From Thalassotalea sp. HSM 43 (GTDB lineage Bacteria; Pseudomonadota; Gammaproteobacteria; Enterobacterales; Alteromonadaceae): DNA of 64,000 nt. The position numbers and the translations under genes were made by a program. Under the pieces are notes generated by a model. The model was not told the origin of the DNA, did not search any database, and saw only the letters and a program-made list of their open reading frames with translations. Positions 623 to 17,183 of this stretch are shown here, in pieces. Position 1 is the first letter of the stretch. Each line of letters opens with the position of its first letter. The DNA lies in contig NZ_CP038493.1 of the NCBI RefSeq assembly GCF_004752005.1, forward strand, positions 1,512,302 through 1,576,301. The letters are read 5' to 3'.

Positions 623-670
623 TGGCACAAAGCGGAAATAATTAGTTTCAAGTGATCTGACCCCTTGAAG
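623..670. repeat. 48-bp dispersed repeat, copy 1
   Basis: This 48-bp stretch is an exact reverse complement of 42650-42697. It contains the core TTCAAGTGATCTGACCCC, which recurs twice more at 63744-63806. The core ends in TTGAA/TTCAA arms, so it can fold imperfectly. The remnant of a rarD-like gene follows directly, so the repeat sits at a deletion or insertion junction. This looks like a REP-like or miniature mobile element, but the family is not identified. Confidence 0.8.
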
Positions 671-814
671 CACGTATTGGCAATCACCGTCTATAACGAG
701 CAACTCATTTTCGAGAAAATGCTAACCTTCGCGTTTATCTGGAGCGCCTTGGTAATCTATAGCATCGACTCATTAAAAAAACGCCGTCAACGCAAGCGTC
801 AAGCCCACAGTTAA
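671..814 (+). pseudogene. 3' remnant of rarD-like EamA transporter gene
   Basis: Reading from about 671 to the stop TAA at 812-814 gives a fragment of about 47 residues. It contains VYNEQLIFEKMLTFAFIW followed by SALVIYSIDSLKKRR, which resembles the last transmembrane helix and basic tail of RarD-type EamA transporters. The other roughly 250 residues are absent and are replaced by the 48-bp dispersed repeat immediately upstream. There is no start codon or ribosome site, so it is a broken gene. Identification is from memory of the family and was not checked by alignment. Confidence 0.65.
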
Positions 815-908
815 GGTGACACACGGTTAGGTCATACCCTGTGTTATCTAGCTCATTCAATCGCATATCGGTACGCTGAGTTAGCGATTTAATGTATTTA
901 TTCTGGCA

Positions 909-939
909 TAAAAAAAGCTCCTGTTTAAAGGAGCTTTTT
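909..939 (-). terminator. Rho-independent terminator of the S8 protease gene
   Basis: An AAAGCTCC / GGAGCTTT stem with a short loop is followed on the minus strand by a run of T. It lies 20 bases beyond the stop of the subtilisin-like gene. It also has an A/T run on the other side and could work in both directions. Confidence 0.8.
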
Positions 940-958
940 ACTATGTAGAAATCGGATG

Positions 959-2359
959 CTAGTGAGGTGAGACAACACGGCCAGCACCGTGAACGTCATC
1001 ATTGCCTGGCTTACCAAGATCGTCCGCTAAACGACGCATTTCTTTCTCAACGTCATTTGGCGACATATCACCACCATTTGCACTGATGATAAGAGCTGCA
1101 ACACCAGCGGCGTGAGGCGATGCCATTGACGTACCGACAGACCAGTACCATGAACCATTACCGCCGGTGCTAAACACGAAGTCAAACACATAACAAGGAC
1201 GGGTAATAAAACCAACAGTACAATCATCAAAACCACCTGGCATAAACGCACTGCTGTAATCGCCGCCTGGAGCAGAGAAATCAACCAATGATTGACCATA
1301 GTTGGTGTAAATCGCTTTGTGATCCAAGTTGGTGTATGAATCCATTGCCCACATCATAGGGCCTGTTGCCGAGATGCTTAATACCGCAGGAAGCTCTGCC
1401 GGTAGTGCAATCAACGAGTCAGCATGGTCATAATCAACACCATCATTACCCGCGGCAGCAATTAAGATAACACCGTTGTTACGAGCGTATTTTGCCGCTT
1501 TGCCGTATGCGTTCTTAAATTGGGCAATACCGTCTTTACCACCTGGTGCAAAACGGATGTCATCACTGATGTCTTCTGGCGTGCCTTCAACATCGTAATA
1601 ACCATTTTTACGGATACTCAAACCCAAACTCATGTTAATAACATCAACATCGTTTTGCGCTGCGTAAACCATTGCCGCCATGGTGCCATAACTGTCACCT
1701 GAGCCAGTGTATGCTGATAATACTTTTAAAATCACCAATTCAGCTTCCGGTGCAACACCTATGGTACCAAAACCATTATCAGCGGCAGCGATCGTACCTG
1801 CAACGTGGGTACCGTGGTTACCGACTTCACCGGCGTAATCAAACCAGTCTTCATCGGCAATAAATGAACGGCTAAGGCTGTAATTGATATTCGGTGATAA
1901 ATCTGGGTGAGACGCGTCAGCGCCAGAATCTAGAACCGCAACTCGTACGCCTTGACCTCGGTGACCCGCTGCCCAAGCTTGTTGAGCCGACACCGCATCA
2001 TGCCCCCATTGCAAACCGAAAAAGAAGTCATCTTCTTGTTGTTGCATATCCATCGCTTCATTAGACGTTAAGGTCATATCCGCCACAGGCAAAGACGAGG
2101 TGTCCATCTTTGGTACAAAGGTAGATACATTTGGCACCAAACCTAAATCCGCATCCATTGCTTGTTGGTGTGTATCAAACGAGACCTTACAAACACCAAT
2201 TTCTGCTAAACAATCAACAACCTGACCACCTTTGGCGGCGACTTGTTTTTCAACCTTGTTGGCATCGAAGTGTTTGTTGGTAGAGTATAGGTAAGAGCCT
2301 GCAATAGACGGTGTAGACACAGCCGCTAGCATAGCTATCGAGATAATCTTAGTTTTCAT
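959..2359 (-). CDS. Secreted subtilisin-like serine protease (peptidase family S8)
   Basis: This 466-residue exported protease has a signal peptide (MKTKIISIAMLAAVSTPSIA) and a prodomain-like region of about 90 residues. The S8 catalytic domain shows all the key residues: Asp144 in VAVLDSGAD, His182 in NHGTHVAGT, the oxyanion Asn305 in AAAGND and Ser411 in GTSMASPHAAG. Four cysteines (about 50, 57, 380 and 389) could form disulfides. There is no long C-terminal extension, so it is probably released rather than surface-attached. AGGGAAG lies just upstream of the ATG. It is transcribed alone with its own terminator and probably degrades external protein. Confidence 0.95.
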   Translation of the reverse strand: MKTKIISIAMLAAVSTPSIAGSYLYSTNKHFDANKVEKQVAAKGGQVVDCLAEIGVCKVSFDTHQQAMDADLGLVPNVSTFVPKMDTSSLPVADMTLTSNEAMDMQQQEDDFFFGLQWGHDAVSAQQAWAAGHRGQGVRVAVLDSGADASHPDLSPNINYSLSRSFIADEDWFDYAGEVGNHGTHVAGTIAAADNGFGTIGVAPEAELVILKVLSAYTGSGDSYGTMAAMVYAAQNDVDVINMSLGLSIRKNGYYDVEGTPEDISDDIRFAPGGKDGIAQFKNAYGKAAKYARNNGVILIAAAGNDGVDYDHADSLIALPAELPAVLSISATGPMMWAMDSYTNLDHKAIYTNYGQSLVDFSAPGGDYSSAFMPGGFDDCTVGFITRPCYVFDFVFSTGGNGSWYWSVGTSMASPHAAGVAALIISANGGDMSPNDVEKEMRRLADDLGKPGNDDVHGAGRVVSPH

Positions 2360-2671
2360 TTTAACTTCCCTAATATTGTTATTTTCAACGGATAATGAAT
2401 CACCATTACTGAATCAATTAGACCCATTAATTCAGTACCTTACGGTGTTCGTTGAGTTTTATTTTTTACCAAATTAAGATCTCATACTGCCGAGATATTA
2501 CTTTTGCAAAGATATTGGTATAACAAATAAAGTGAAGAGAAGTGAAAAATTGATTAAATATTGCACAAAAATCCTAACCGGTATTTCGTAACATGGTATT
2601 TACAAACGCAATAACGAATGACATAGCTTATAACCAAAAGATTAATCGTGTTGTGATGCAAATAGACAGAG
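2360..2671. other. Intergenic, holds the protease promoter
   Basis: This 312-base AT-rich gap follows the aconitase X operon and precedes the protease gene, both on the minus strand. It should contain the protease promoter. I see no hairpin with a T run that would end the upstream operon and no small gene. Confidence 0.45.
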
Positions 2672-3112
2672 TTAATCATCTATTAAGATGGTGCCGCAGG
2701 ATTTAACCGTTACCATCTGTTGATTATGTATTTTATCGAATAACTTGTCGTCATCGACTTCAATGATGGCGATGGACTTGTGATACCAGACATCTGCTAA
2801 CACCACGCCTGACACCAATAATGAATCGGCATGTTGCACAATGATTGCCGCCGGTGCTCTATCAAAACTGACTAAATCCAACAACACTAAACCGGTATGT
2901 GTCGAGCCAATACAACTTGGGAATACCAGCACTTTGCCGGCAATATTTTGTTTAAACAGTTCATGATGCGCATCACGAACTTCCGCCCGTTTGCTTGGCA
3001 ACATATTCGGTACTTTACACATAGACGCGGTAAAGTTGATGGGCTGTTCGGTCACCAGCGCTGGTGCGCGAGCTTGTCCAGGGACGATAGCTTTGCCTTG
3101 AATTTTTTGCAT
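2672..3112 (-). CDS. Aconitase X small (swivel) subunit, DUF126 family
   Basis: This 146-residue protein is the swivel domain of aconitase X (AcnX), here separate from the catalytic subunit. Known AcnX enzymes dehydrate cis-3-hydroxy-L-proline in bacteria or phosphomevalonate in archaea. The stretch LVFPSCIGSTHTG matches the conserved VFPxGxGSS region, with Thr-His replacing part of the usual Ser-Ser-Thr, which may alter the substrate. I place the start at the ATG at 3112, which shares one base with the stop of the large subunit gene (TAATG). A longer frame to 3133 would overlap the partner needlessly. Translational coupling fits an equimolar complex. Confidence 0.85.
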   Translation of the reverse strand: MQKIQGKAIVPGQARAPALVTEQPINFTASMCKVPNMLPSKRAEVRDAHHELFKQNIAGKVLVFPSCIGSTHTGLVLLDLVSFDRAPAAIIVQHADSLLVSGVVLADVWYHKSIAIIEVDDDKLFDKIHNQQMVTVKSCGTILIDD

Positions 3113-4287
3113 TACTGCTCCACCACGCCACACGCCGCCAGCACATCATGCAGATCACCGTAGCGTGTACCTTCCAAATAGTAATAAAGCTTACCCGACG
3201 GGGTTAACACCTCTTTATTACCGATGCTAATACGCAAACTCAATCCGGCCAATGGACAATGCTCTAATACCTCAACACCAGCGTCGATTACTTGTTGATA
3301 TAATTCACTTTGCTCAAACTCTCTAAGTGCTTGCGGAATCAAATGGAACAAAGTGCGTTTTTTAACTTTTTTGCCGACAAAGTACGGCGCGATTTCCATG
3401 GTTTCTTGCAAGGTCATTTGCGGACAACCGAAAGCAATGATTTTTGCATCCTGTTGAATCTCCTTAGCACTGCGCACTTGCGTTAAATCATCTTGGCTGA
3501 TGGTCACGCTTTGTTCAGGCTGCTGACCGGCAAACGCGGTTTGCTCATCACTCGCTTCAGGGGTTAAACCAATGACATGAAATAAGCTAACACCGCCGCT
3601 TGAAGCCATGGCAGCGCCCATGTTTTTTAATTGATCATCAGTAAACGGGTAGTAATCGAGTACCGGTACCTTATCGACGGCAATTTTGCCGATTAGAAAC
3701 CCTAACGCCGGCGCGTCCATAACGTCAATATCAAGGTTTATCTTTACCTGTCCACGGCGATTTTCATCCAATAAGTAACCAAACTCAGGCGTTAAACCAG
3801 TCACCGCCTGACAAATATCGACCATAATCGAATTGCGATTTGAACGTGCGCCAATCACCGAGTTTGCATAGATAATCGCCGAGCTTTCAGCCCAACCAAG
3901 AACATCACCAAATTCGGGAATGTTGTCATAGCGATAACAAACACAAGAGTAATTGGCGATGATGCCTAAGGCTTCTAACTGTTGTTCATGCCATTGCTGT
4001 GATTTAAAGATCAATCGATTTTGCGGTGTATAGTCATAGCCCGGCCGTGGATTTAATGTGGTAGGGACTTTGACTTTAATGCCAGCGCTAACCAACTGCG
4101 AAATGATTTCATAGTACGCGGTGTAAAAGAATATTTTAAAACTTCCGGTTAAATGTGCGCTTTTAATTGGCACCAAACGGGGCGCATTAAATGCTTTACC
4201 ATAATTCACTAGAGTAAGCAGACACTTAGCCATTTCAGGGCCTTCACTGCCATCAAGAATCGCCTGTTGTTGTTCTGTTAGCTGCAT
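3112..4287 (-). CDS. Aconitase X catalytic (large) subunit, DUF521 family
   Basis: This 391-residue AcnX catalytic subunit carries the family signature ESSAIIYANSVIGARSNRN, preceded by the SCVCYRYDNIPEFGD segment whose cysteines are candidates for binding an iron-sulfur or metal centre. AcnX enzymes are hydro-lyases. The best-known bacterial role is cis-3-hydroxy-L-proline dehydratase, yet no proline-type reductase or ornithine cyclodeaminase gene lies nearby, so the substrate is open. The gene overlaps the DUF2185 gene upstream by 10 bases and the small subunit gene by one base, so the four minus-strand genes form one operon. Confidence 0.88.
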   Translation of the reverse strand: MQLTEQQQAILDGSEGPEMAKCLLTLVNYGKAFNAPRLVPIKSAHLTGSFKIFFYTAYYEIISQLVSAGIKVKVPTTLNPRPGYDYTPQNRLIFKSQQWHEQQLEALGIIANYSCVCYRYDNIPEFGDVLGWAESSAIIYANSVIGARSNRNSIMVDICQAVTGLTPEFGYLLDENRRGQVKINLDIDVMDAPALGFLIGKIAVDKVPVLDYYPFTDDQLKNMGAAMASSGGVSLFHVIGLTPEASDEQTAFAGQQPEQSVTISQDDLTQVRSAKEIQQDAKIIAFGCPQMTLQETMEIAPYFVGKKVKKRTLFHLIPQALREFEQSELYQQVIDAGVEVLEHCPLAGLSLRISIGNKEVLTPSGKLYYYLEGTRYGDLHDVLAACGVVEQ

Positions 4288-4583
4288 TGTTGCTGCTCAT
4301 TTACGTAGGGTTGCCATTGGCCATGCTTAAATTCAAAACAACTCCCGACCGGTAAATCGAGTTGAAACTGCGCACATCGCGTTAAGTTATTTGCTAGATG
4401 GCCAAGTTGTTCAATATCAAGCATTAAGATGTTGCTGGGTTTGGCTAAAAACTCACCGGTTTCTTCGCTGGTAAATACCCGCCAGCCACTGTCTTGATTA
4501 GAAAAGGGCTTTTCACGATACGCAAGTCGCGCAACATTGTCATTGCTGACCAATTTCGATATCAAAAAAAATTGTTGGCTCAT
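4278..4583 (-). CDS. DUF2185 (Imm33-like) domain protein
   Basis: This 101-residue cytoplasmic protein has the pattern seen in DUF2185/immunity-protein-33-like domains: a VSN...AYREKP segment followed by QDSGWRVFTSEETGEFL. The family is often found near toxins or as a stand-alone domain and has no known enzymatic role. Here it lies between a PLP enzyme and aconitase X with overlapping ends, so it probably serves the pathway, perhaps as an accessory or chaperone, and not as a toxin antidote. ATG at 4583 follows a GAGGAT ribosome site. An in-frame TTG two codons earlier is less likely. Confidence 0.7.
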   Translation of the reverse strand: MSQQFFLISKLVSNDNVARLAYREKPFSNQDSGWRVFTSEETGEFLAKPSNILMLDIEQLGHLANNLTRCAQFQLDLPVGSCFEFKHGQWQPYVNEQQQCS

Positions 4584-4585
4584 TA

Positions 4586-5800
4586 TCAATCCTCGTTACG
4601 CTGTCGTTGCATGCGTCCCGGCAAAGGCTTGGCTTTGTGTTGTGACATAATCGACCAACGGTGCTGTAAACGTACTTGCTCATTCTTACGACGTAACAGC
4701 AAAATATCGCCAAACTGCAACAATACCGCTTCACTTTGGCTTGGCCTAAAAAAGACAAAATCATCAACGTCAATTGGCTGCTTGCTATCGACCATCATAA
4801 ATTGTTGATTTGAGCTCAAGCCATATAAGTAATTGCGCATCAGGTTTGGATACACCGCTTTAGCCAGCCAGCGACCACCGTACAAAAACAACGTATCTTT
4901 GTATTTTTCCGTCCACTGACAATACTTGTCAGGCACAAAAGGAATGCTGATGCCTTTTAATCGCTTTAACACCTGAGTAGCAATAAAACAGGCACATTGA
5001 TACTGGCGCAGTCCGGCCAAATCAAAGTCTGTCGGTTTCAAAAAAATCGAACCCACCGATATTTCATTGGTACACGATTGTTGGTGCATGGCATGAGTGG
5101 TACTGCCGCCGCCGTTGAATATCAGCTCTTCACCATTGAGCAGCAAGGCATCAATAAATTGTTGGTATCGTTGTTCTGTTTGAGCGAATGCTTTTTCTAC
5201 AGACATAAACGGTCGAGGCGCTTTTACCACATGCGCGTCATACCCCATCAAGGCGGTGAGTTTGACGTGCTTCTTATTTTGATTCACAAACGCCTGCAAT
5301 TGTTGCAGTTGCTCAGGTTCACCAAGACCGCCACGATGCATGCCTACATCAATTTCGATGGCAATTTTAAAGCACACATTGTACTTACGGCCTAACATCA
5401 ATAGCTGATCAAGGCGCTGCTTACTGTCTATCAACCATTGGATTTGCGCCAGCTTTGGCAACTGCTCATGTTGCGCCAAGTATTTAATGATGTGCTCGAC
5501 ACTATTACTTGGTAATGGCTTACCCATCAAGATATCGGCATTTTCAAAAGCGTCGAGAATTTCCAACACAAATGGGGTGTGAAAACACATAAAGCGGCGA
5601 CAATCGAGTTGTTCACCCAAATACGCTAACAAATCGAGACATGGTAATGACTTAACCACCAATCGCAAATCTTTGCCGTAAGTGGCCGCACGTACTTTTT
5701 CAACATTAGCATCAAGGACATCCAAATCAATGAACAAACTTGGGCTATTTACCGCCGCCACTTTCAGACATTTTTCATACTGCTGATATTGATTACTCAT
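4586..5800 (-). CDS. Fold-type III PLP enzyme (alanine racemase N-terminal / D-threonine aldolase-like)
   Basis: This 404-residue protein starts like the DSD1/D-threonine aldolase branch of alanine-racemase-fold enzymes: FIDLDVLDANVEKV, then the PLP lysine at about residue 50 in LRLVVKSLP. GGGSTTH is a candidate phosphate-binding loop. The C-terminal region has SQSEAVLLQFGDILLLRR where family members usually have a His-x-Cys metal site near a GD motif, and I cannot find that His/Cys pair. It may therefore be a metal-independent racemase, aldolase or dehydratase of an unknown amino acid. I chose ATG 5800 over GTG 5806. It leads the operon with DUF2185 and aconitase X. Confidence 0.75.
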   Translation of the reverse strand: MSNQYQQYEKCLKVAAVNSPSLFIDLDVLDANVEKVRAATYGKDLRLVVKSLPCLDLLAYLGEQLDCRRFMCFHTPFVLEILDAFENADILMGKPLPSNSVEHIIKYLAQHEQLPKLAQIQWLIDSKQRLDQLLMLGRKYNVCFKIAIEIDVGMHRGGLGEPEQLQQLQAFVNQNKKHVKLTALMGYDAHVVKAPRPFMSVEKAFAQTEQRYQQFIDALLLNGEELIFNGGGSTTHAMHQQSCTNEISVGSIFLKPTDFDLAGLRQYQCACFIATQVLKRLKGISIPFVPDKYCQWTEKYKDTLFLYGGRWLAKAVYPNLMRNYLYGLSSNQQFMMVDSKQPIDVDDFVFFRPSQSEAVLLQFGDILLLRRKNEQVRLQHRWSIMSQHKAKPLPGRMQRQRNED

Positions 5801-6077
5801 ATCCACTCTTCTCTGACCAACAACATATTATTGGCTCACCCGTTAAATATCAGACTATACTTTATTGTACATATATACAATTTAAGATTGACTTGTCTCG
5901 AACAATAGTTCAATTTACTTTGAAACAGCATAGCCTTCTTACTTATAACAGACGAGCTTTTTGTTGAAGCAAAAAGTTATAAAGATTGGGCTTGTGTACA
6001 AATTCATATTCGGTCACTATGCGCCAATCATCGCTGTTAACATTTTATTAACATAGTGGAAATTTACGGAGTTTTAA
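5801..6077. promoter_or_regulatory. Divergent promoter region of the aconitase X / decarboxylase locus
   Basis: This 277-base AT-rich gap separates two divergent operons whose products look like one pathway. Both promoters must lie here, so shared regulation is likely, but no regulator gene is adjacent. I found no clear operator palindrome by eye. Confidence 0.5.
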
Positions 6078-7604
6078 ATGAAGTTTCCAGAACAAGGTCA
6101 AGACACAGGAACAGTACTCACTAAATTAGAGTTAATGAAGAGTGAAGACCTGCCTTGGGAAGAAGGCAAAGTATTCGCCTATGTATATGATGCTGGCCCA
6201 CAAGCGATGAAGCTTATAAAAGACTCATTTAGTCTGTTTTTAACCGAAAATGGTCTTGACCCAACGGCGTTTCCAAGCGCCATGCAACTGGAGAAAGAAG
6301 TCATCGGTATGGCCATTGATTTGATCAATGGTGGCGATAAAGCTGAGGGCAGTTTTACCTCCGGTGGTACTGAATCAATTATATTAGCGGTCAAATCGGC
6401 GCGAGACTTTGCCAAAGCAGAACGCAACATTAGCGAACCGGAATTGCTATTACCGGAAACCGCTCACCCAGCCTTCACTAAGGCCTGTCAGTACCTAAAA
6501 ATTAAGCCGGTCGTGGTTAAAGTTAATGAACAAAACTTTCAAGCCATTGGCAGCGAAATGGAACAAGCAATTAACGATAACACCATCATGATGGTGGCAT
6601 CGGCACCGGGTTACGGCCATGGTGTTATTGATCCCATTAGTGAGTTAGGTCAGATCGCTCTCAAGCACGACATTCTATTTCACGTCGACAGCTGCGTTGG
6701 CGGTATGTACTTACCGTTTGCTAAACAATTAGGCTTCGACATTCCCGATTTTGATTTATCGGTGCCCGGAGTGACATCAATTTCCATGGATTTTCATAAG
6801 TGGGGATATGCGGCAAAAGGTGCGTCAGCGGTGATCTACAAAGACGGTGCCAAGATGCGCAGCTATCAAATTTTTGCTTGGTCAGGCTGGACCGGTTACT
6901 CGGTGATAAATCCAACGGTGATGTCAACCAAATCCGCCGGACCGATCGCTGCGTGTTGGGCAATTCTCAACCATATGGGCAAGCAAGGTTACTTAGATTT
7001 GGTGCAAAAGAGCCAAACCGCTGCCAACAAAATCATGGACGCCATTACCAACGACATTGAACCACTGCGACTTATGGGTGAGCCAAAAGCAAACTTATTT
7101 GCCATTACATCCGACACGGTCGATATATTCGCGCTAGCCGATGAAATGAAAACTCGAGGTTGGTACATTCAACCCCAATTTGGTTACTCATCATCTAAGG
7201 GCAACGTACACCTGTCGGTAGGCGCGCATAATGCAGATAAAGCCGATGAATTTATTAGCGATCTAAAAATGATGACAGCCAAGCTGGTGGCCGAACAAAA
7301 AGGCCCATCAATGCAACAGTTACCCGATGACATCGCCGAACTGGTGGCTAACCCTGATGAAAGATTACTGGAAAAGCTCAGTGAACTTCTTGGCTCAGAC
7401 GGCACCAACTTACCGGAGCGTATGGATGCGGTAAATAACGTGCTTAACCTGATGGAGCCAAAGCTTAGAGACAAACTGCTGGCCGACTTTCTTAACCAAC
7501 TGTATTCAAGCGCCGATAAGAGTGTATTTGAAGGAGTGAAAATTCCTAAGATTTATCGCCTTTACCGTTATTTCAAAAAACTGTTAGGCTACAGTGATAA
7601 ATAA
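6078..7604 (+). CDS. Group II PLP-dependent decarboxylase / sphingosine-phosphate-lyase-like enzyme
   Basis: This 508-residue cytoplasmic PLP enzyme has fold-type I motifs. FTSGGTES (93-100) binds the cofactor phosphate, HVDSCVGG has the ring-binding Asp204, and SMDFHKWGYAAKG has the Schiff-base Lys241. The DFHKWGYAAKG form is closer to sphingosine-1-phosphate lyase and related group II decarboxylases than to glutamate decarboxylase GadB, so it could cleave a C-C bond of a beta-hydroxy amine or decarboxylate an amino acid. About 90 C-terminal residues extend beyond the core. ACGGAG precedes the ATG. The MFS gene follows after 15 bases. Confidence 0.85.
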   Translation: MKFPEQGQDTGTVLTKLELMKSEDLPWEEGKVFAYVYDAGPQAMKLIKDSFSLFLTENGLDPTAFPSAMQLEKEVIGMAIDLINGGDKAEGSFTSGGTESIILAVKSARDFAKAERNISEPELLLPETAHPAFTKACQYLKIKPVVVKVNEQNFQAIGSEMEQAINDNTIMMVASAPGYGHGVIDPISELGQIALKHDILFHVDSCVGGMYLPFAKQLGFDIPDFDLSVPGVTSISMDFHKWGYAAKGASAVIYKDGAKMRSYQIFAWSGWTGYSVINPTVMSTKSAGPIAACWAILNHMGKQGYLDLVQKSQTAANKIMDAITNDIEPLRLMGEPKANLFAITSDTVDIFALADEMKTRGWYIQPQFGYSSSKGNVHLSVGAHNADKADEFISDLKMMTAKLVAEQKGPSMQQLPDDIAELVANPDERLLEKLSELLGSDGTNLPERMDAVNNVLNLMEPKLRDKLLADFLNQLYSSADKSVFEGVKIPKIYRLYRYFKKLLGYSDK

Positions 7605-7619
7605 TAACAAGACGTCATC

Positions 7620-8861
7620 ATGCAATATTTGAAAGAAAACTATCGTTGGCGAATATGTCTGGTGCTGTTCGTCACCGTGTTGGTTGGTTTTTACGACCGC
7701 TTAAATATCACCTTTGCCATCCCCTTAATGGCGCAAGAATATGGCTGGAGCGATCAGCAAGTTCGCGATAACGGCTCTTTGCTAATGGGCATATTCTATT
7801 TGGGTTATGGCTTAGCCAATATCTTTTTAACCCCAATTGCCAGCCGTTTCGGCCCACGCAAAACCTTACTGGTGGTTATTGTGTTATGGAGCCTGTTTAC
7901 TGCGCTGGGTGCGTGGGTAAGCCAATTTATGATGCTGCTCATCGCCACCCGAGTATTACTTGGCCTCAGTGAAGGTGTGCATTTTCCGATGATGGCGCAA
8001 CTCACCAAAAACTGGTTCGCGTTGCATGAGCGTGCCAAGGCGAACAGCATATGGGTCAGTGGTATATTCGTCGCGGTATTAACCGCACCGCTGTTATTGG
8101 TGCCAATGATGGCCAATTTTGGCTGGCGTTCGGGCTTTGTCGTACTGGCGTTAATCGGCCTAGTGATCTCCTTACCTTTGGTTTACCTAACCATTCAAGA
8201 CAAACCCGCGCAACATAACAAAGTCTCATCACAAGAACGGCAATACCTAGCCGACCATCATGATTACGAAGATGGACTCACCGATAATTCGCTGCTTTGG
8301 CAAGTCATGACCAAACCTGGCTTTTTGTTATTGATGGCGATAGGTATCTGCAACAATATTGTCGCGCTCGGCGTCTCAAGTTGGTTACCGACCTATTTTG
8401 CCACCGAAAAAGGCATCCCATTTAATGACATCGCTTGGTTGGTTGCCACCCCCTATGTATTTTCATTGTTCGGTATTGCGCTATGGTCTTACCTTGGCGA
8501 CAAACACAATAAGCGCACCATAGTAGCCGGGGTTGGTTATTTTATGTGTGGCATCATGCTGTATTTGGCCTTAGACAGCGACACTATATGGCAAGTGGCG
8601 TTATTGTTTTCTGCTGCGGTATTTTTTATCTCGTCTTACAACGCCTGCGAATTTGCCATGGTACAACGGCTGTTACCGAAACATAAGGTTGCCACAGGCG
8701 CTGGTATTTATAACGGCTTAACCACCATGATTGGTGGTGGCTTAGGACCGGTCATTGTCTCGCCAATCATAGGCGATGGCGAAGGCACTTGGATTGTATC
8801 TGTGGTGTGTGCCATTAACGCCTTAATGCTCATCGCCGTTTATCGCACAGTTAAATATTAA
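7620..8861 (+). CDS. MFS transporter, probably anion:cation symporter family
   Basis: This 413-residue membrane protein has about 12 hydrophobic helices and the MFS loop signature after helix 2 (ASRFGPRKT). An acidic/aromatic start (FYDRLNITFAIPLM) and the RVLLGLSEGVHFPMM helix-4 segment are typical of the ACS family, which carries hexuronates, phthalate, sialate and other organic anions with protons or sodium. It lies between the decarboxylase and aminotransferase genes (15 and 9 bases apart), so it is probably the uptake system for the substrate of this locus. The substrate cannot be read from sequence. Confidence 0.88.
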   Translation: MQYLKENYRWRICLVLFVTVLVGFYDRLNITFAIPLMAQEYGWSDQQVRDNGSLLMGIFYLGYGLANIFLTPIASRFGPRKTLLVVIVLWSLFTALGAWVSQFMMLLIATRVLLGLSEGVHFPMMAQLTKNWFALHERAKANSIWVSGIFVAVLTAPLLLVPMMANFGWRSGFVVLALIGLVISLPLVYLTIQDKPAQHNKVSSQERQYLADHHDYEDGLTDNSLLWQVMTKPGFLLLMAIGICNNIVALGVSSWLPTYFATEKGIPFNDIAWLVATPYVFSLFGIALWSYLGDKHNKRTIVAGVGYFMCGIMLYLALDSDTIWQVALLFSAAVFFISSYNACEFAMVQRLLPKHKVATGAGIYNGLTTMIGGGLGPVIVSPIIGDGEGTWIVSVVCAINALMLIAVYRTVKY

Positions 8862-8870
8862 GGTACAGCC

Positions 8871-10190
8871 ATGACACGTATCATCTACCCACAAACCAAC
8901 CCTAATGAAACCGAACAATTAATCATTAGCCGCGGCCAAGGTGCGTATGTTTATGATGATAAAGGCAAGCAATACATCGAAGGACTTGCTGGTTTATGGT
9001 CAACATCTTTGGGTTATGGCAACGAAGAGCTTATAGAGGTCGCCAATCAACAAATGCGCGAGATAGCCTATACGCCGATGTTTGCCGGAAAAAGCCATAA
9101 CATAGGCATTGAGCTCGCTGAAACGCTCTCAGACATGCTACCGATGGACGATGCGCGGATATTTTTTGGTAACAGCGGCAGTGATGCCAATGACACCCAT
9201 TTAAAATTATTACGATATTATTTTAATGTCATCGGCAAGCCAGAAAAGAAAAAGGTGATATCACGGCATCGTGCCTATCATGGTGTCACTATGGCCGCAT
9301 CATGTTTAACCGGCTTACCGGCGTTTCATCAGCATTTTAATTTGCCCATTGACGAGCTCAACATCTTACACACCGATTGCCCACATTATTATCGCAATGG
9401 CTTGCCCGGTGAATCCGAAGCTCAATTTTGCCAACGCTTGGTCGATAATCTTGAGCAACTCATTTTAACCGAAGGCCCAGACACTATCGCCGCGTTTATC
9501 GCAGAACCCATAAATGGTGCCGGAGGTGTGGTGCTGCCACCACAAGGCTATTTTGATAAAGTGCAGGCCCTGCTAAACAAATATCAAATATTTTTTATCT
9601 GTGATGAAGTGATTACTGGTTTTGGCCGAACCGGTCATGATTTTGCCAGTCGCGCCTTTGACATTGATGCCGATATGATGACCTTGGCCAAAGCCTTATC
9701 CTCGTCATACTTACCTATCAGCGCCGCTGCCGTGAGCGCTAATATTCACGAAACAATTCGCGAGCCGGCCAACAAAGTTGGCGCATTTGCCCATGGATAT
9801 ACCTATTCTGGTCACCCTGTTTGTGCAGCAGTTGCATTAAAAACCTTGCAAATTTACGAACGTGATCAATTATTTATACATGCAGGACAATTAGGGTGCT
9901 ATTTTCAACAACGCCTAAACGAGCTCATAAAATTTGAGTGTGTTGGCGAAATCCGCGGTATGGGATTAATCGCCGGGCTAGAAATTGTCAGTGATAAAGC
10001 GAACAAAACTGCTTGTGCAGAGCTCGCCGCTAACATCGCTGCCAGATGTCTTGAAAATGGTCTGATCCTGCGACAAGTATACGGTAATACGCTGGCTTTA
10101 TGCCCGCCTTTGATCATCAACAAATCACAGGCGGATGAGATAGTCGATAAGTTAACGCTGTCAATTGAACAAACGTTAATTCATCGCTAA
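8871..10190 (+). CDS. Class III PLP aminotransferase (omega-transaminase-like)
   Basis: This 439-residue enzyme shows class III aminotransferase motifs: GLWSTSLGYG near the N-terminus, FFGNSGSDAND at 98-108 for PLP phosphate, ICDEVITGFGRTG with ring-binding Asp245, and Lys274 in TLAKALSSSYLPI for the Schiff base. Relatives transfer amino groups from beta-alanine, taurine, putrescine or other terminal amines to pyruvate or 2-oxoglutarate. It follows the MFS gene by 9 bases with AAGG ahead of the ATG, so it is in the same operon. A role after a decarboxylase, removing the amine it makes, is a reasonable inference. Confidence 0.88.
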   Translation: MTRIIYPQTNPNETEQLIISRGQGAYVYDDKGKQYIEGLAGLWSTSLGYGNEELIEVANQQMREIAYTPMFAGKSHNIGIELAETLSDMLPMDDARIFFGNSGSDANDTHLKLLRYYFNVIGKPEKKKVISRHRAYHGVTMAASCLTGLPAFHQHFNLPIDELNILHTDCPHYYRNGLPGESEAQFCQRLVDNLEQLILTEGPDTIAAFIAEPINGAGGVVLPPQGYFDKVQALLNKYQIFFICDEVITGFGRTGHDFASRAFDIDADMMTLAKALSSSYLPISAAAVSANIHETIREPANKVGAFAHGYTYSGHPVCAAVALKTLQIYERDQLFIHAGQLGCYFQQRLNELIKFECVGEIRGMGLIAGLEIVSDKANKTACAELAANIAARCLENGLILRQVYGNTLALCPPLIINKSQADEIVDKLTLSIEQTLIHR

Positions 10191-10253
10191 CTGGCCAGCA
10201 TGGTATAACGCTACCGTACAAAAATAATTGGTATCAGACATAAAGGAATTGTC

Positions 10254-12608
10254 ATGAAAACCTTGTTAAAGTTACTGCTTGCGATGATGATCATGTTGGT
10301 CATTGTCATATACGGCACCTTATCAGGTTCGAACGTGAAACTTGACGGTATCGAATTAGTTAAAGGCGCAAAGCAGGACATTGAAATCCAATTTGATGCG
10401 GCGCAACGACCATTCGTTTACGCTGACTCTCTCGACGACGCCCTGTTTGCGCAGGGGTACTTGCATGCTGCCAATCGCCTTTGGCAAATGGAGATGTTTC
10501 GCCGTGCAGGCTCTGGTCGTCTAAGCGAACTGCTTGGTAAGGATATGATCGCCACCGACATCGAATTGTGGCGCCTTGGTATTCCTAAATTAGCACAAAA
10601 ATTACAAGCCAACGCCAGTGATGTGATGCAACAGCGTGTGCAAGATTACATCAGCGGTATCAACAACTTTATTTATGCTAACCCAATTCTGCCACCCGAG
10701 TTTTTATTACTTGGCTCAAAGGTATCTCCATGGCAAGCGGAAGATGTCTATGCAGTCGGCGCGTTAATGGCATTTCAAAGCGGTAATAATTTTCGCAACG
10801 AGTTGTTGCGCATGGCCATATACAATGAAGTGCAACCCGAGCTTGCGCGGATGTTCCTTACTCATGACGGCAACAAGCAAGAATTCCCATATGTTATGCC
10901 GATCCCCGCAGCCAATCATAATATCGTAGATACGGTCGCCAGACTCGATAACACCGATGCCAACGAAAACCCTTTAATGCCAAGATTTGCTTTTGGCTCA
11001 AATGGCTGGGTGGTTAGCCCCGAGAAAACCGAAAATAAACGAGCATTATTTGCCTTTGATTCTCATGATTCCTTGGGCCTACCGAACTTATTTTATGAAG
11101 TGCATTTGTTTTTTAACCTCAATAACCAACCTCGACAAATACGGGGTTGGTCTGTAGCAGGGCTACCTGGGGTGATTAATGGCTTTAATGAACACATTGC
11201 TTGGGGCTTTACCAATATTGGTGATACCCAAGATGTATTTGTCGAAACTCCGCATCCAGAACAAGCCTTTACCTACAAAGACGGAGAAACTTGGTATAAA
11301 GCCGACACCGAGCAAGTCAGTATCAAGGTCAAAGGCGAGCAGAAGCCAACCAAGGTGACGTTAGTTAATACTTTAAACGGCGTGTTAATCGCCGAAAACC
11401 CGTCGTTGTCATTACGCTGGACCATACAAGATATTGGTGACAAAGGCTTAGACGCTATTTTGCAGTTTAACCTTGCTCGCAACTGGCAGGAATTTAACAA
11501 GGCCTTGGATCAGTTAGCCGCGCCATCGTTAAATGCCACGTATGCCGATACCAAGGGCAACATAGGTTTTCGTACCGCAGGTGTATTACCACTTAGAGGT
11601 GAAGGGGTCGGCTTAGTGCCACTCGCTGGCGACATCGCCGAAAATCGCTGGCAAGGCATGGTAAAAGAACAAGATATGCCACGTATTTATAACCCCAAAG
11701 CCGGATTTATTGCGGCCGCCAATGCGAGGGTTAACGCCGAAGGTCAAGGTGTCTTGGTATCCGCAGATAACGCCGCACCGTATCGCATCCAGCGTATACA
11801 ATCGGTCTTGCAGGATAAACAGCAGCTCACCTTAACCGATATGCAAACACTGCAAGTTGATTACTTTGATACGCAAGCACAGTTATTGTTACCAACCATG
11901 CTTGCCGACCTCACGCCGAGGAAGTCTACTGCTCATATTGGCGCACAACGCTTATTAAAACGATGGCTAGAACAACCTACTGCCGATAAAGACAGTGGCG
12001 CCGCATTGGTGTTTCAGCTTTGGTATAAGCAACTCGCTAACGATTTATTAGCGAGTCGATTACCAAAACCGCTACTCAATAAAGTATTAAAGAAAAGTTA
12101 TTTGGTAAATCACACTCTGGATCAATTGCTACTATCTGAGACAGAGCATTTATGGTGGCAAGATAAGCGCAAAAAGTTTGTATCTGATGCATTCACTACA
12201 GCGGTGAAAAGCCTGGTCAAAACACAGGGTCAAGATCCACTAAAGTGGCGTTTGGGTAATATGCATACCGTAAAGCTTAATCACGAATTAGGTAAAGCGA
12301 TATCCGTTTTAGACCCTATGTTTAATTCTGACAGCCAGCCAATGTCCGGCTCAACCAGTACCGTTGGCCGAGCCAATTATGATTATTTAGGCGACCTTAA
12401 AGTCAAGCATGGTGCTACCGTCAGGGTTGTTGCCGAAATGGCTGATGACATTACCGTCAAATCAATCATGCCCGGTGGGCAAAGCGGTCATCCCATGTCA
12501 GCACATTATGATGATCAATTTACTCAATGGTTGAATGGCGAGTTGACGGTTATTGAAGAGCCTCAGCAACAAGCATCAATGAGCTTATTGCTTAAGGCAT
12601 ACAACTAA
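10254..12608 (+). CDS. Penicillin acylase family N-terminal-nucleophile amidohydrolase
   Basis: This 784-residue precursor has an N-terminal hydrophobic helix (6-24) that should target it to the periplasm. An alpha-chain region (DALFAQGYLHAANRLWQMEMFRR) is followed by the autoprocessing site before Ser249 in FAFGSNGWVV, the nucleophile that becomes the N-terminus of the beta chain. Family members cleave amides such as penicillin G, cephalosporin side chains and acyl-homoserine lactones. Placement 63 bases after the aminotransferase gene, same strand, suggests it releases an amine or amino acid from an N-acyl compound for import. Quorum quenching is an alternative. AAAGGAATTGTC precedes the ATG. 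Confidence 0.9.
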   Translation: MKTLLKLLLAMMIMLVIVIYGTLSGSNVKLDGIELVKGAKQDIEIQFDAAQRPFVYADSLDDALFAQGYLHAANRLWQMEMFRRAGSGRLSELLGKDMIATDIELWRLGIPKLAQKLQANASDVMQQRVQDYISGINNFIYANPILPPEFLLLGSKVSPWQAEDVYAVGALMAFQSGNNFRNELLRMAIYNEVQPELARMFLTHDGNKQEFPYVMPIPAANHNIVDTVARLDNTDANENPLMPRFAFGSNGWVVSPEKTENKRALFAFDSHDSLGLPNLFYEVHLFFNLNNQPRQIRGWSVAGLPGVINGFNEHIAWGFTNIGDTQDVFVETPHPEQAFTYKDGETWYKADTEQVSIKVKGEQKPTKVTLVNTLNGVLIAENPSLSLRWTIQDIGDKGLDAILQFNLARNWQEFNKALDQLAAPSLNATYADTKGNIGFRTAGVLPLRGEGVGLVPLAGDIAENRWQGMVKEQDMPRIYNPKAGFIAAANARVNAEGQGVLVSADNAAPYRIQRIQSVLQDKQQLTLTDMQTLQVDYFDTQAQLLLPTMLADLTPRKSTAHIGAQRLLKRWLEQPTADKDSGAALVFQLWYKQLANDLLASRLPKPLLNKVLKKSYLVNHTLDQLLLSETEHLWWQDKRKKFVSDAFTTAVKSLVKTQGQDPLKWRLGNMHTVKLNHELGKAISVLDPMFNSDSQPMSGSTSTVGRANYDYLGDLKVKHGATVRVVAEMADDITVKSIMPGGQSGHPMSAHYDDQFTQWLNGELTVIEEPQQQASMSLLLKAYN

Positions 12609-12624
12609 TTTAATTCGCTAGACG

Positions 12625-13680
12625 CTAATGAGTTTGTTTTTCAGCGGCGCGTTTGGCCTTATTAATACGTTCGATTAACGCTGGGTGAGTACTGAAGTAC
12701 TTGCCCAAGTTATCCTCATCAGCAGCATCGCCCTGTTGCTCAAATAAGCCTTGCATCGCCTTAGCAAAATCATCCGCCGAGCGATCCAGTCGGTCTAGTC
12801 CTTCAAGGGCAAAGTCATCGGCTTCAGCTTCTAAGTCACGAGAAAAGTTATTCTGAATTACCGTTAATGCGGTACCCGAGAATAATTCAGCCATGCCTTG
12901 TAGATCACCAAAGAAATACGATAACAACAAAGTGGTCGCTAACGATTCAGCCATCGCTTGCATACCATGACGATGTTCAACATGAGCAATTTCATGCAGC
13001 AATATCGCCGAGATAACTTGCGGTTGTTCTGCAAATAAATTAACCAAGTCATCAGTAACAACGATGGTGCCACCAGGTAAAGCAAAGGCATTTGCACCAA
13101 ACGCTTCACTTTTGTAAAAGCGCAAATCATAAGGGTATTGATTGAGTTGCAATCGCTGCAACATATAATCAAAATCATCGTTTATAAGCCGCTGTGTTTG
13201 CTCGCTGATTTCAGTTTCATCAAGAACGTGTTCGGCAATAAACTCTATCGATTCTTGGTCAACATTGTGCAAGAACGACACCGGTAAAATATGCGCCACT
13301 GAACGCGCTGCACCCGGTACCACAACATTTATCAACAGATAAAATAATATCGGCACCAAAACAAGCGCCGGCAGCCAATATCGCTTGCTACGTTCGAGTT
13401 TATCAACCAGGTGAAATACGCTGTTTTTTTGCTCGAGTAAAAAACGGCACACCGGATCGTCTCTATCCAAGCTAATGTGATTGCCATCACTCAACAGCAC
13501 ATCACAAGGAATGCTGCCAAGCGGCTCCGACACCTTCAGGTTTTGATATTCGCTTTGATAAATCGTCTCGCTATTGTCCGTATCTAAGATCACTAATTGC
13601 TCATTTTCGATGCGTACCTTAACGTCGCGCACAGCATCCTGTCCGCGACTCATTAATTTACCGTTGCCGTGTAATTGCAT
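12625..13680 (-). CDS. M48 family zinc metallopeptidase, membrane-anchored
   Basis: This 351-residue protein has a cytoplasmic N-terminal domain, one transmembrane segment (about 102-122) and an M48 peptidase domain with the zinc motif HEIAH at 229-233, inside LLHEIAHVEHRHGM. The third ligand is probably a Glu in the LEAEADDFAL segment. It resembles HtpX/BepA-type envelope quality-control proteases, without the tetratricopeptide repeats of BepA. The ATG is 3 bases beyond the stop of the DUF898 gene, so the two are co-transcribed. The gene ends 16 bases from the converging acylase gene. Confidence 0.9.
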   Translation of the reverse strand: MQLHGNGKLMSRGQDAVRDVKVRIENEQLVILDTDNSETIYQSEYQNLKVSEPLGSIPCDVLLSDGNHISLDRDDPVCRFLLEQKNSVFHLVDKLERSKRYWLPALVLVPILFYLLINVVVPGAARSVAHILPVSFLHNVDQESIEFIAEHVLDETEISEQTQRLINDDFDYMLQRLQLNQYPYDLRFYKSEAFGANAFALPGGTIVVTDDLVNLFAEQPQVISAILLHEIAHVEHRHGMQAMAESLATTLLLSYFFGDLQGMAELFSGTALTVIQNNFSRDLEAEADDFALEGLDRLDRSADDFAKAMQGLFEQQGDAADEDNLGKYFSTHPALIERINKAKRAAEKQTH

Positions 13681-13682
13681 AG

Positions 13683-14759
13683 TTAACCTAACGCAACATC
13701 AACATCAAAAACATTGGCAACTTCATCACCAATAGCGGTGGTTTGCTCGCCAATTTCATCAATGACTTCGCTACGGTTATCTACCGCCATGACGCCGGTG
13801 TTATCGACGGCATAGTTAACCATACGGATTTTGGTCCAAGGATAAGCCAAGCCAAAGCTACAGATTAACGCAATGATATTGGTTAGATAGATATAGCACA
13901 GGCCATTAAAGCTAAAGGTAGAGCCAAAGTTAGCAACGCCTTGCAAGAAGGTACTTTCAAAAATATGGTTGCGTACACGAGCCTTATAGAAGGCACGCAC
14001 AATGGTAAACGCCAACAGGTATACGGCAAACGTCGCAAACGTCATGATATTCATCGCTTGCTCGCTGACACTGGCATCTGGTGCCACGGTGCTAACCACA
14101 AACATTGCCACAGCAAAAATGATGGCAAATAAAATACCCGAGATAAAACTGGCGACAAAATATATTTCGCCAGACAATTCGGTACTAAATGCTTTGTTGC
14201 CGTATTTGGTGTTATTGACTATGTATTGATCCATATTCTTCAATACCCACGGCATGGCCAGATACAAGGTAAATATCGACGCAAATGGCAACACCACACA
14301 ATACAGCAAGGTTTGCCAATAGGTGCCGGTGTAATCGAAACGCACATTACGATAACTGGTCATGCGCATTTTAAAACGCAAACTTGAGCAAATTAGAAAC
14401 GGCGTTAAAAACACCATCACCGCCATAAAACCAAACATAAATTCAGGTGACTGCATGCTTAGCCAGTAATACGCGGCGAACAAGATCACCGCCAGTATGC
14501 GCCCTTTAAGGATCTGCATTGGCTCAGCTAAATAGTTAAAACGATGACCGTCTAGTTCGGTGCTACCATACAGGTAACGAAAGGTGCGAACTTTGGCCCA
14601 AGCAGAATATATCCCCAAAGTAATAATACTGAGCAGGACATTGACGATCCAAATGCCGAAAAATTCTTTTGATTTGCCGTGAAAACGAAAGTCCACCGGT
14701 GACAGGCTCATTAACGCAGGTGACGAAGACTCAGTCTCGTCCTTGTGTTCGTGTTCCAT
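13683..14759 (-). CDS. DUF898 (YjgN-like) inner-membrane protein
   Basis: This 358-residue multi-pass membrane protein matches the DUF898/YjgN family. FRFHGKSKEFFGIWIVNVLL and LGIYSAWAKVRTFRYLYGST are characteristic, and a second copy of the Gly-Xaa-Trp-like motif (SFGLAYPWTKIRMVNY) is in the C-terminal half. At least six hydrophobic segments are visible. The function of the family is unknown. Pairing with an M48 peptidase is a known neighbourhood, suggesting a joint envelope role. AAGGATAAAAT precedes the ATG at 14759. The C-terminal 45 residues are acidic and cytosolic in character. Confidence 0.88.
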   Translation of the reverse strand: MEHEHKDETESSSPALMSLSPVDFRFHGKSKEFFGIWIVNVLLSIITLGIYSAWAKVRTFRYLYGSTELDGHRFNYLAEPMQILKGRILAVILFAAYYWLSMQSPEFMFGFMAVMVFLTPFLICSSLRFKMRMTSYRNVRFDYTGTYWQTLLYCVVLPFASIFTLYLAMPWVLKNMDQYIVNNTKYGNKAFSTELSGEIYFVASFISGILFAIIFAVAMFVVSTVAPDASVSEQAMNIMTFATFAVYLLAFTIVRAFYKARVRNHIFESTFLQGVANFGSTFSFNGLCYIYLTNIIALICSFGLAYPWTKIRMVNYAVDNTGVMAVDNRSEVIDEIGEQTTAIGDEVANVFDVDVALG

Positions 14760-17094: not shown

Positions 17095-17183
17095 AGTGCT
17101 GATATTTTGCCAATGCCAATAAGATTTTGCTTTAGTATAACGCAGTCACTGTATGTAAAAACAGTAAAAAATAAAAAATCATT

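Follow-up and report, generated by a model that had tools for sequence, protein, structure and literature searches.

What might a bacterium degrade with a locus that sets both subunits of aconitase X (AcnX) beside two PLP enzymes, a carrier, an aminotransferase and an acylase? The locus lies in a window of 64,000 nt, the whole stretch of DNA analyzed here, from Thalassotalea sp. HSM 43 (NZ_CP038493.1, 1,512,302-1,576,301; GCF_004752005.1). It is proposed, as a serious possibility that falls short of a probable one, that this cluster serves the breakdown of an N-acylated compound carrying a beta-hydroxy amine.

Organization of the locus

All eight genes that the first-pass annotation had placed at 2672-12608 are present at the positions and on the strands it gave, each confirmed by Pfam (Table 1). 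Its claim that overlapping genes show each arm to be an operon is wrong for the right arm, where gaps of 15, 9 and 63 bases separate the genes; overlaps occur in the left arm only. Co-transcription is nonetheless plausible for both arms, and no sigma-70-like match was found in the divergent intergenic region. The genes flanking the cluster in the window (S8 protease, M48, DUF898 and UvrD, all but S8 labelled by eye) have no match in the cluster stretches of any of seven relatives, which sets the cluster borders.

Table 1. Features of the AcnX locus (window positions).
Feature	Position	Strand	Evidence
Aconitase X small (swivel) subunit	2672..3133	-	Pfam PF01989 AcnX_swivel_put 3.9e-20; alignment with TkAcnX/AtAcnX and relatives
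Aconitase X large subunit	3112..4287	-	Pfam PF04412 AcnX 3.8e-102; PDB 7cnr 2e-47
Small Imm33/DUF2185 protein, accessory	4278..4589	-	Pfam PF09951 Imm33 2.2e-12
Fold III PLP enzyme, D-threonine aldolase / D-3-hydroxyaspartate aldolase-dehydratase group	4586..5806	-	Pfam PF01168 Ala_racemase_N 5.7e-17; profile versus PDB; AF2 model and fold search
Divergent intergenic region, 32% G+C	5807..6077	.	Base composition
Sphingosine-1-phosphate-lyase-like PLP enzyme	6078..7604	+	Pfam Pyridoxal_deC 4.7e-20; PDB 8ayf 1.6e-78, 3mad 7.9e-77
MFS carrier	7620..8861	+	Pfam PF07690 MFS_1 2.1e-68; TIGR00893 177.5 bits versus cut-off 395
Class III (omega) aminotransferase	8871..10190	+	Pfam PF00202 Aminotran_3 3.3e-90; NF004767 582 bits, cut-off 517
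N-terminal-nucleophile acylase	10254..12608	+	Pfam PF01804 Penicil_amidase 4.3e-178; PDB D-succinylase 5.3e-55

Conservation of the gene set

The seven relatives, from four families, were picked by AcnX alone and together with the window give eight clusters. Profile searches found the sphingosine-1-phosphate (S1P) lyase-like enzyme (worst E 2.9e-199) and the fold III PLP enzyme (worst E 4.2e-125) in all eight; since the two profiles were built including five of the eight, the clean tests are G660, G664 and G665, all of them positive. The acylase, searched with the window protein only, as was the single-sequence comparison table, was likewise found in 8/8 (worst E 5.7e-145). The MFS carrier adjoins the lyase in every cluster, and the fold III gene stands immediately before the acylase gene in seven of the eight genomes. 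In Ferrimonas marina the gene set is rearranged yet kept, split into three parts that lie inside about 65 kb of a single contig. The first-pass annotation had made its reading depend on the neighbours being conserved together, and the core set is indeed kept in all seven relatives, which amount to about five independent observations because the lyases of the three Halieaceae are near-identical. Cluster-type AcnX occurs in one of 15 genomes of the genus and in one of 398 of a phylum sample, the Thalassotalea genome itself being counted in both, and AcnX is found in none of six genomes carrying more distant lyase homologues. The gene set is rare and conserved, and its co-occurrence is beyond chance.

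Other genes vary. Imm33 (PF09951), which we take to be the former DUF2185, had been counted as a locus member; it is present in the window and is found in four clusters, adjoining AcnX in three relatives, and was not found in three, so it looks accessory (the contig of the eighth cluster ends inside AcnX). Class III aminotransferases occur in four of the eight clusters, as two types in different clusters with 33% identity. The cluster stretches also hold a TetR regulator (7/8), aldehyde dehydrogenases (4/8), a TonB receptor (3/8; 42-43% identity) and a hydroxyaspartate-dehydratase-like (BhcB-like, fold II) gene (2/8); genes of these four kinds, in the types seen in the relatives, were not found within the 64-kb window. 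A TPP enzyme has an orthologue in four of the eight whole genomes, the copy of Thalassotalea sp. HSM 43 lying at C1:202213.

Aconitase X

The large subunit carries the Fe-S cysteines C115, C288 and C344 and a substrate pocket with T47, S49 and F50. Residues kept across the AcnX superfamily are invariant among ten sequences (C115, C288, E134, S135, K366 and Y370) or nearly so (C344, paired by eye with Cys342 of TkAcnX, whose alignment ends before that site). In the small subunit Ser-Thr-His occupies the catalytic-loop position, with the catalytic Ser retained in the alignment. With residue equivalences taken from PMC8184944, Thr47 and Phe50 are found in all seven large subunits that could be aligned (a contig end truncates the eighth), which does not match the cis-3-hydroxyproline dehydratase signature, and all eight small subunits have His at the Thr72 position and Thr at the Trp35 position. 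The phosphate site of mevalonate 5-phosphate dehydratase (Ser50/Asn53) is likewise lacking, position 50 being Phe in 7/7 and position 53 Phe in five and Ser in two (Halieaceae). In the tree the cluster type is split from six other AcnX sequences with support 0.998.

The characterized type II (heterodimeric) AcnX share with the cluster enzyme two subunits, the Fe-S cysteines and the active-site Glu, Ser, Lys and Tyr (PMC8184944). They are cis-3-hydroxyproline dehydratase (IIa) and archaeal mevalonate 5-phosphate dehydratase (IIb), whereas the cluster AcnX has neither substrate signature. PMC8184944, the study in which the AcnX structures were solved, assigns to subclasses IIc-IIf no landmark residue of either function and describes them as awaiting characterization. 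Retention of the Fe-S cysteines together with loss of the residues that bind 3-hydroxyproline or phosphomevalonate suggests, at the level of sequence, that the specificity of the cluster AcnX has changed.

PLP enzymes, carrier and acylase

The protein first annotated as a group II decarboxylase-like enzyme is instead closest to S1P lyases, its best solved match being among them (Table 1). Its PLP lysine is K241; K247 is also present, and the head-group pocket is altered by Y35 and D61. Equivalents of the S1P lyase residues Lys311 (PLP), His201, Asp274, Cys276, His310 and Lys317 are kept in 8/8. At the phosphate site Tyr105, Asn126 and Lys317 are retained, and Tyr and Asp replace Ala/Thr103 and His/Gln129 in every cluster. 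Compared with the S1P lyases of S. thermophilum, human and yeast, as given in PMC6148460, fold I, the PLP lysine, the PLP-sandwich and PLP-aspartate residues and the three retained phosphate-site residues are common, whereas the cluster enzyme has Thr at Ser353 of the PLP cup and belongs to a clade of its own. This Tyr-Asp type forms a single clade (support 1.000) that includes sequences from G406 and Nonomuraea. Conservation of the catalytic residues with replacement of phosphate-site residues suggests a changed specificity; given the altered phosphate site, the substrate of the clade is probably something other than that of S1P lyase. No kinase was recognized among the window genes at 1-18000 (Pfam on nine genes, the remainder by eye).

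For the fold III enzyme (PLP lysine K52), profile comparison with the PDB and a fold search give D-threonine aldolase, D-3-hydroxyaspartate aldolase and D-hydroxyaspartate dehydratase as the closest solved structures. Alanine racemases rank lower, so that the epimerization step of the first-pass scheme has no special support. With D-threonine aldolase, BhcC and D-threo-3-hydroxyaspartate dehydratase it shares the fold and the PLP-lysine region at 14-18% identity (fold search), and it scores 43.7 bits against the BhcC model NF045642, whose cut-off is 690. The D-threonine aldolase / D-serine dehydratase group binds metal through a His-x-Cys/Asp motif in the C-terminal domain. Gln-Ser-Glu (357-359), conserved in 8/8, stands at what is likely the place of that motif, the profile-versus-PDB alignments ending before it.

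The best NCBIfam model for the MFS carrier is the D-galactonate transporter subfamily (TIGR00893), below its cut-off. The acylase has an N-terminal hydrophobic segment and predicted processing before Ser249, the residue at which several known acylase beta chains begin, with Gly-Ser conserved in 8/8; its likeness to D-succinylase is weak.

Proposed pathway and alternatives

From these parts we infer the following reactions, their order and the class of substrate. A TonB receptor, in some relatives, would take the compound into the periplasm, where the probably periplasmic acylase would strip the acyl group, and the MFS carrier would bring in the freed polar amine. The S1P-lyase-like enzyme would then cleave, by a PLP-dependent retro-aldol reaction, the C-C bond next to the amine of a substrate with a non-phosphate head group. 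The aldehyde could be oxidized by the aldehyde dehydrogenases of the relatives, and the class III aminotransferase may take the amine off the small fragment. AcnX would dehydrate a beta-hydroxy acid, and the fold III enzyme, with the hydroxyaspartate-dehydratase-like enzyme in two relatives, would act on a beta-hydroxy-D-amino acid. Where present, the TPP enzyme may act on a 2-oxo acid or acyloin that results. The chemistries of the lyase, the fold III enzyme and the fold II enzyme of the relatives overlap, and the scheme could do without some of them. A more specific version is possible, on balance doubtful: a new pathway in which a kinase-free, non-phosphate Tyr-Asp subfamily of S1P lyases and an uncharacterized AcnX subclass degrade an N-acylated sphingoid- or beta-hydroxy-amino-acid-like product, with TonB uptake in some hosts.

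Several other readings use the same genes. Catabolism of cis-3-hydroxyproline or another hydroxyproline, which has the AcnX family membership in its favour, is barely credible: the equivalents of Asp203, Ile206 and Trp35 are replaced in all cluster subunits aligned; NF051439 gives 184.8 bits for the large subunit and 69.9 for the small against a cut-off of 700, a harsh test of split subunits because the model describes a fused form; and an AcnX that does have the hydroxyproline-type Asp, that of G141, falls with AtAcnX in the tree and away from the cluster type. As first annotated, proline racemase-type and imine reductase genes are missing: a search of the complete genome at E<=0.001 returned neither PF05544 nor OCD/mu-crystallin PF02423 (the one imine reductase type covered), which makes hydroxyproline use unlikely. 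This null result and the 7/7 core conservation bear out the earlier view of a candidate undescribed, non-hydroxyproline catabolic locus. The exact scheme offered with it (deacylation, import, epimerization, dehydration, C-C cleavage and transamination of one beta-hydroxy amino acid) is improbable: the parts list is identical and the fold III fold matches racemases too, but that enzyme is closer to aldolases and dehydratases, and the lyase belongs to the amine-releasing kind represented by S1P lyase. A beta-hydroxy amino compound remains plausible as the substrate class, shorn of the epimerization and plain decarboxylase steps.

Phosphorylation-independent catabolism of sphingoid lipids, with a ceramidase-like acylase and a lyase splitting the free long-chain base into fatty aldehyde and ethanolamine, is unlikely. 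It would account for the nearness to S1P lyases with two phosphate-site positions changed and the catalytic ones kept, the aldehyde dehydrogenases, a FadD11-like acyl-CoA ligase (below cut-off, in Paraferrimonas only) and the TonB receptors, but it gives no role to AcnX and the fold III enzyme, both in 8/8, and the closest model for the MFS protein is that of a sugar-acid carrier. To our knowledge, moreover, known ceramidases belong to other families. In another reading the substrate is a lipopeptide or amphiphilic siderophore that contains beta-hydroxyaspartate; its breakdown, in which the acylase would free the N-terminal D-beta-hydroxyaspartate for the fold III enzyme and the BhcB-like dehydratase, fits the fold III-acylase adjacency, the D-threonine and D-3-hydroxyaspartate enzymes and D-succinylase as nearest solved structures, and the BhcB-like genes and TonB receptors of some relatives. 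We regard it as improbable nonetheless, since AcnX and the lyase are left unexplained, the cut-offs of the BhcB and BhcC models are not reached and no conserved peptidase was recognized in the clusters by eye. A biosynthetic or tailoring role is distinctly improbable; here the acylase, like PvdQ, would mature a lipidated precursor, the MFS protein would export, and the PLP and TPP enzymes would build an amino alcohol. The Ferrimonas TPP enzyme matches solved BbmA and CsmA and the PvdQ model matches the acylase weakly, but no NRPS or PKS was recognized in the clusters (by eye, from gene starts), and the TonB receptor, sugar-acid-type MFS carrier and aldehyde dehydrogenases better fit uptake and breakdown.

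Comparison with known systems

The cluster gives a functionally uncharacterized AcnX type tight, testable partners (acylase, carrier, lyase and fold III enzyme) and delimits a clade of S1P-lyase-like enzymes with an altered phosphate site. If true, the catabolic reading would add a physiological role of AcnX to the two that we know of, in the metabolism of hydroxyproline and of mevalonate; should the substrate prove to be an N-acyl amine or lipid that is abundant, these genes would serve as markers of its turnover.

With the beta-hydroxyaspartate cycle (bhcABCD) the cluster shares a fold III lyase, joined in two relatives by a BhcB-like dehydratase of fold II; its scores against the BhcB and BhcC models are both below cut-off. 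We know of no AcnX, S1P-lyase-like enzyme, acylase or TonB receptor in that cycle, nor of an AcnX or S1P-lyase-like gene in the fumonisin (fum) cluster of Sphingopyxis MTA144. The first step of the fum cluster is ester-cleaving, whereas that of the cluster here is predicted to be amide-cleaving. In outline the two are alike, a hydrolase being followed by an aminotransferase acting on a 2-amino-3-hydroxy compound, as described for FumD and FumI in PMC2933618 and PMC4843849.

Gene organization

The eight genes are arranged in two divergent arms, and the Pfam family of every product was confirmed. The first-pass annotation had described overlapping genes in each arm; this holds for the left arm, in which neighbors overlap or abut, but not for the right arm, in which gaps of 15, 9 and 63 bases separate the genes. 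If an inner ATG start is used, the small subunit gene of aconitase X (AcnX) overlaps the large-subunit stop by 1 base. Between the arms lies an A+T-rich intergenic region of 271 bases (5807-6077). A search for sigma-70-like promoters returned 13 matches, none within 5807-6077, against 21.2 in shuffled sequence, and is therefore uninformative; the Rfam scan of positions 1-20000 of the window gave no match at gathering score.

Genes of the AcnX/lyase cluster in Thalassotalea sp. HSM 43 (window positions)
Feature	Position	Strand	Order of transcription	Family
Fold type III PLP enzyme	4586-5806	minus	first	Pfam family confirmed
Imm33 (former DUF2185) protein	4278-4589	minus	second	Pfam family confirmed
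AcnX large subunit	3112-4287	minus	third	Pfam family confirmed
AcnX small subunit	2672-3133	minus	fourth	Pfam family confirmed
PLP lyase	6078-7604	plus		Pfam family confirmed
MFS carrier	7620-8861	plus		Pfam family confirmed
Class III aminotransferase	8871-10190	plus		Pfam family confirmed
Acylase	10254-12608	plus		Pfam family confirmed

Conservation and distribution

A contig scan with the AcnX large subunit, which detects close relatives only, returned ten loci. Seven are close (64-77%) and belong to Ferrimonas marina, Paraferrimonas sedimenticola, one Woeseiaceae, three Halieaceae and one Lysobacteraceae MAG, representing four gammaproteobacterial families, each from a different order; the remaining three are clostridial (36-37%), and of the window genes only the AcnX pair was matched there. 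The seven relatives were thus selected by AcnX alone, and counts out of eight include the window, the case itself. The earlier proposal that the neighboring genes belong with AcnX is borne out: the lyase, the fold III enzyme and the acylase each occur in 8/8 genomes, with one match apiece at the limits used apart from Ferrimonas, where a weaker acylase match accompanies the main one. The MFS gene adjoins the lyase gene and the two AcnX genes are adjacent in all eight, and the fold III gene is immediately upstream of the acylase gene in every cluster except that of the window (7/8). The lyase and fold III profiles include sequences from five of the eight genomes; plain tblastn with the window proteins gave the same 8/8, and the counts are those of tblastn, an earlier all-against-all comparison having been inflated by antisense frames. 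Against the window proteins the relatives show 52-59% (lyase), 38-45% (fold III), 38-52% (acylase, covered over only 56% at a contig end in G664) and 48-55% (MFS); the fold III match of the relative G662 has one TGA flagged inside, and a separate frame reading is open over 409 codons. Imm33 is present in four of the seven clusters with sequence upstream of AcnX and was not found in the other three.

In Ferrimonas a single contig carries the parts at three sites (about 66-70, 108-111 and 127-132 kb), so the joint presence of the genes is likely due to shared function rather than mere linkage. The genes flanking the cluster in the window have no tblastn match in the relatives' stretches. Since the three Halieaceae lyases are near-identical, the seven relatives amount to about five independent cases. 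We conclude that the cluster is a real, conserved gene set.

It is also rare. Own genome included, the AcnX family is over cut-off in 2/295 genomes of the order, and cluster-type AcnX is found in 1/15 genomes of the genus (E<=1e-60) and 1/398 of the phylum sample (E<=1e-80). Lyase homologues (E<=1e-60) occur in 7/369 of the class sample, and none of the six other genomes holding one has AcnX, a count slightly weakened by two incomplete genomes (81 and 88%). Such a patchy distribution by itself cannot tell transfer from loss; base composition gives no sign of recent acquisition, the G+C content of the cluster being 44.8% and that of window pieces of the same size averaging 43.7% (sd 1.1%).

The S1P-lyase-like enzyme

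The label of group II decarboxylase-like enzyme had to be replaced. The top NCBIfam model is MfnA, at 225 bits under its cut-off of 299, whereas the ten top matches among solved structures are all sphingosine-1-phosphate (S1P) lyase or sphinganine-1-phosphate aldolase (first 8ayf, 1.6e-78), and the MfnA structure 3f9t reaches only 2.9e-27. Mapping onto the residue table of PMC6148460 shows that the PLP lysine, His201, Asp274, Cys276, His310, Lys317, Tyr105 and Asn126 are kept in all eight cluster lyases. At the phosphate site, all eight have Tyr in place of Ala/Thr103 and Asp in place of His/Gln129, and the PLP-cup Ser353 is replaced by Thr. These kept residues and the altered phosphate site suggest that the enzyme probably runs S1P-lyase-type chemistry on a substrate whose head group is not a phosphate. 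The sulfonolipid capnine was weighed as a substrate: Lys247 is kept, but the acquired Asp at the anion site argues against it, and the papers listed from the open-licence PMC literature gave no support for it.

Two non-cluster homologues in which both positions are readable, from G406 and Nonomuraea, share the Tyr and Asp, and the partial homologue of G522 has the Asp; none of the further homologues inspected has the pair (G332, G436, two of G414, one Rhizobium and one Rhodobacteraceae). In a tree of 18 rows, without G522, the Tyr-Asp lyases form a single clade with support of 1.000. The genomic contexts of the distant homologues point to no shared pathway. In Nonomuraea gerenzanensis (L049, 9001-10446), where the actinobacterial enzyme (41%) has the Tyr-Asp pocket, neither an AcnX nor an acylase gene was recognised by eye within the surrounding 19 kb. 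On a Rhodobacteraceae M382 plasmid (L047, 386-12047), a gene with the annotation 'class V aminotransferase' is a distant S1P-lyase-like gene; its neighbors are annotated as N-deacylases, CoA-transferases and a member of the aspartate aminotransferase family, and the locus is perhaps another unassigned N-acyl amine pathway.

Aconitase X

The AcnX large subunit keeps the cysteines that bind the Fe-S cluster in TkAcnX (C115 and C288; C344 was paired by eye) and the active-site Glu, Ser, Lys and Tyr. Its specificity residues are different. In the alignments with TkAcnX, the position of Asp203 in AtAcnX, the cis-3-hydroxyproline dehydratase (Ala47 in TkAcnX, the archaeal mevalonate 5-phosphate dehydratase), is Thr, and that of TkAcnX Ser50 is Phe, in all seven of the cluster large subunits in the alignment, from which the eighth (L011), truncated by its contig end, was omitted. 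In the small subunit, the residue following the catalytic Ser-Thr is His in 8/8. By contrast, the AcnX of genome G141 carries the Asp and groups with AtAcnX. The cluster AcnX separates from six others (two from Clostridia, Rhodococcus, TkAcnX, AtAcnX and G141) with support of 0.998, in a tree into which the two solved enzymes were entered as fragments. PMC8184944 describes AcnX subclasses IIc-IIf, which are without the landmark residue of either known function; with neither landmark set, the cluster AcnX matches that description.

Other AcnX loci have different surroundings. In G141 (L002, 1501-4072) the AcnX with the hydroxyproline-type Asp adjoins a dihydrodipicolinate-synthase-like gene, so labeled by eye, and the locus looks like an ordinary cis-3-hydroxyproline locus. 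Immediately upstream of the clostridial AcnX pairs (37%; L012 and L014, about 7910-11720) is the gene of an old-yellow-enzyme-type FMN oxidoreductase, assigned by Pfam in L012 and by eye in L014; an enoate reduction after the dehydration would pair naturally. On a Rhodococcus opacus PD630 plasmid (L050, 8001-16182), an annotated acetolactate synthase catalytic subunit lies about 5 kb from an AcnX pair, a second AcnX/TPP-enzyme neighborhood with an AcnX of another type.

Accessory genes

The accessory genes were counted in stretches whose total per genome ranges from about 11 to 60 kb. A TetR regulator is present in 7/8, the window being the one without. Ferrimonas, Woeseiaceae (in the order receptor, lyase, MFS) and Lysobacteraceae have a TonB-dependent receptor, matched at 42-43% identity over nearly its full length; two Halieaceae gave weaker, partial matches, which are left out of the count. 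Class III aminotransferases of two types occur in 4/8: those of the window and Lysobacteraceae are one type (50%), and those of the two Ferrimonadaceae are of the AptA type (Paraferrimonas, 649.8 bits, over the cut-off of 500). Aldehyde dehydrogenases are likewise found in 4/8; both Ferrimonadaceae have them next to the lyase, and in three clusters they adjoin the fold III gene. A FadD11-like ligase, below cut-off, is found in Paraferrimonas only.

A TPP enzyme adjoins Imm33 or AcnX in 3/8; the window's genome has one elsewhere, and the remaining four whole genomes have none at E<=1e-80. It was rejected as a 2-hydroxyacyl-CoA lyase (113 bits to a protein of that kind against 226 for acetolactate synthase I, the best solved match) and as Xsc (no Xsc model among the best 25 of 48-49 models per protein). 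The Thalassotalea genome has an orthologue (56% to Ferrimonas) far from the AcnX cluster, at C1:202213-203943 (L039, 8509-11950), adjoining a FAD_binding_2 gene and near a gene labeled AraC-like by eye; the pathway may have its second locus here.

A BhcB-like dehydratase gene is located 3' of the acylase gene in Ferrimonas and adjoins AcnX in Lysobacteraceae, both under the cut-off of 550 bits (430 and 204, the latter a partial gene). In the Lysobacteraceae genome (G665) a BhcB-like gene is split between the right ends of L010 and L041, each end carrying the part that the other lacks; this cluster is therefore probably one continuous block.

Proposed pathway and comparison with known systems

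Hydroxyproline and mevalonate roles, the known functions of AcnX, are disfavored by its active-site residues together with the missing partner families, and on the tests applied the cluster does not classify as a hydroxyproline, mevalonate or beta-hydroxyaspartate pathway. We propose instead that the acylase, probably periplasmic judging from its hydrophobic N-terminal segment (by eye) and conserved processing serine, would remove an acyl group by amide hydrolysis in the periplasm. The MFS carrier, whose nearest model is a D-galactonate transporter (177.5 bits, below the cut-off of 395), may take a small polar acid or amine as its cargo. The lyase would cleave beside an amine to give an aldehyde, in agreement with the aldehyde dehydrogenases adjoining the lyase and fold III genes. 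AcnX would dehydrate a beta-hydroxy acid, the solved members catalyzing loss of a beta-hydroxyl adjacent to a carboxylate. The fold III enzyme falls among the beta-hydroxy-D-amino-acid lyases (its AF2 model has a mean pLDDT of 71, below 50 over most of residues 282-341). Taken together, these features suggest a putative substrate, an N-acylated beta-hydroxy amine or amino acid, and a putative order of steps.

The cluster is most likely catabolic, and it is built from known families, two of which, the lyase and AcnX, have substrate pockets predicted from their residues to be changed. It is apparently undescribed, no AcnX and S1P-lyase cluster being described in the titles and abstract openings listed from the open-licence PMC literature. 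The strong gene context offers a clear path to function for an orphan AcnX type. In outline the cluster would resemble the fumonisin route of FumD and FumI, hydrolysis followed by attack on the 2-amino-3-hydroxy end, but would use amide hydrolysis and S1P-lyase-type cleavage.
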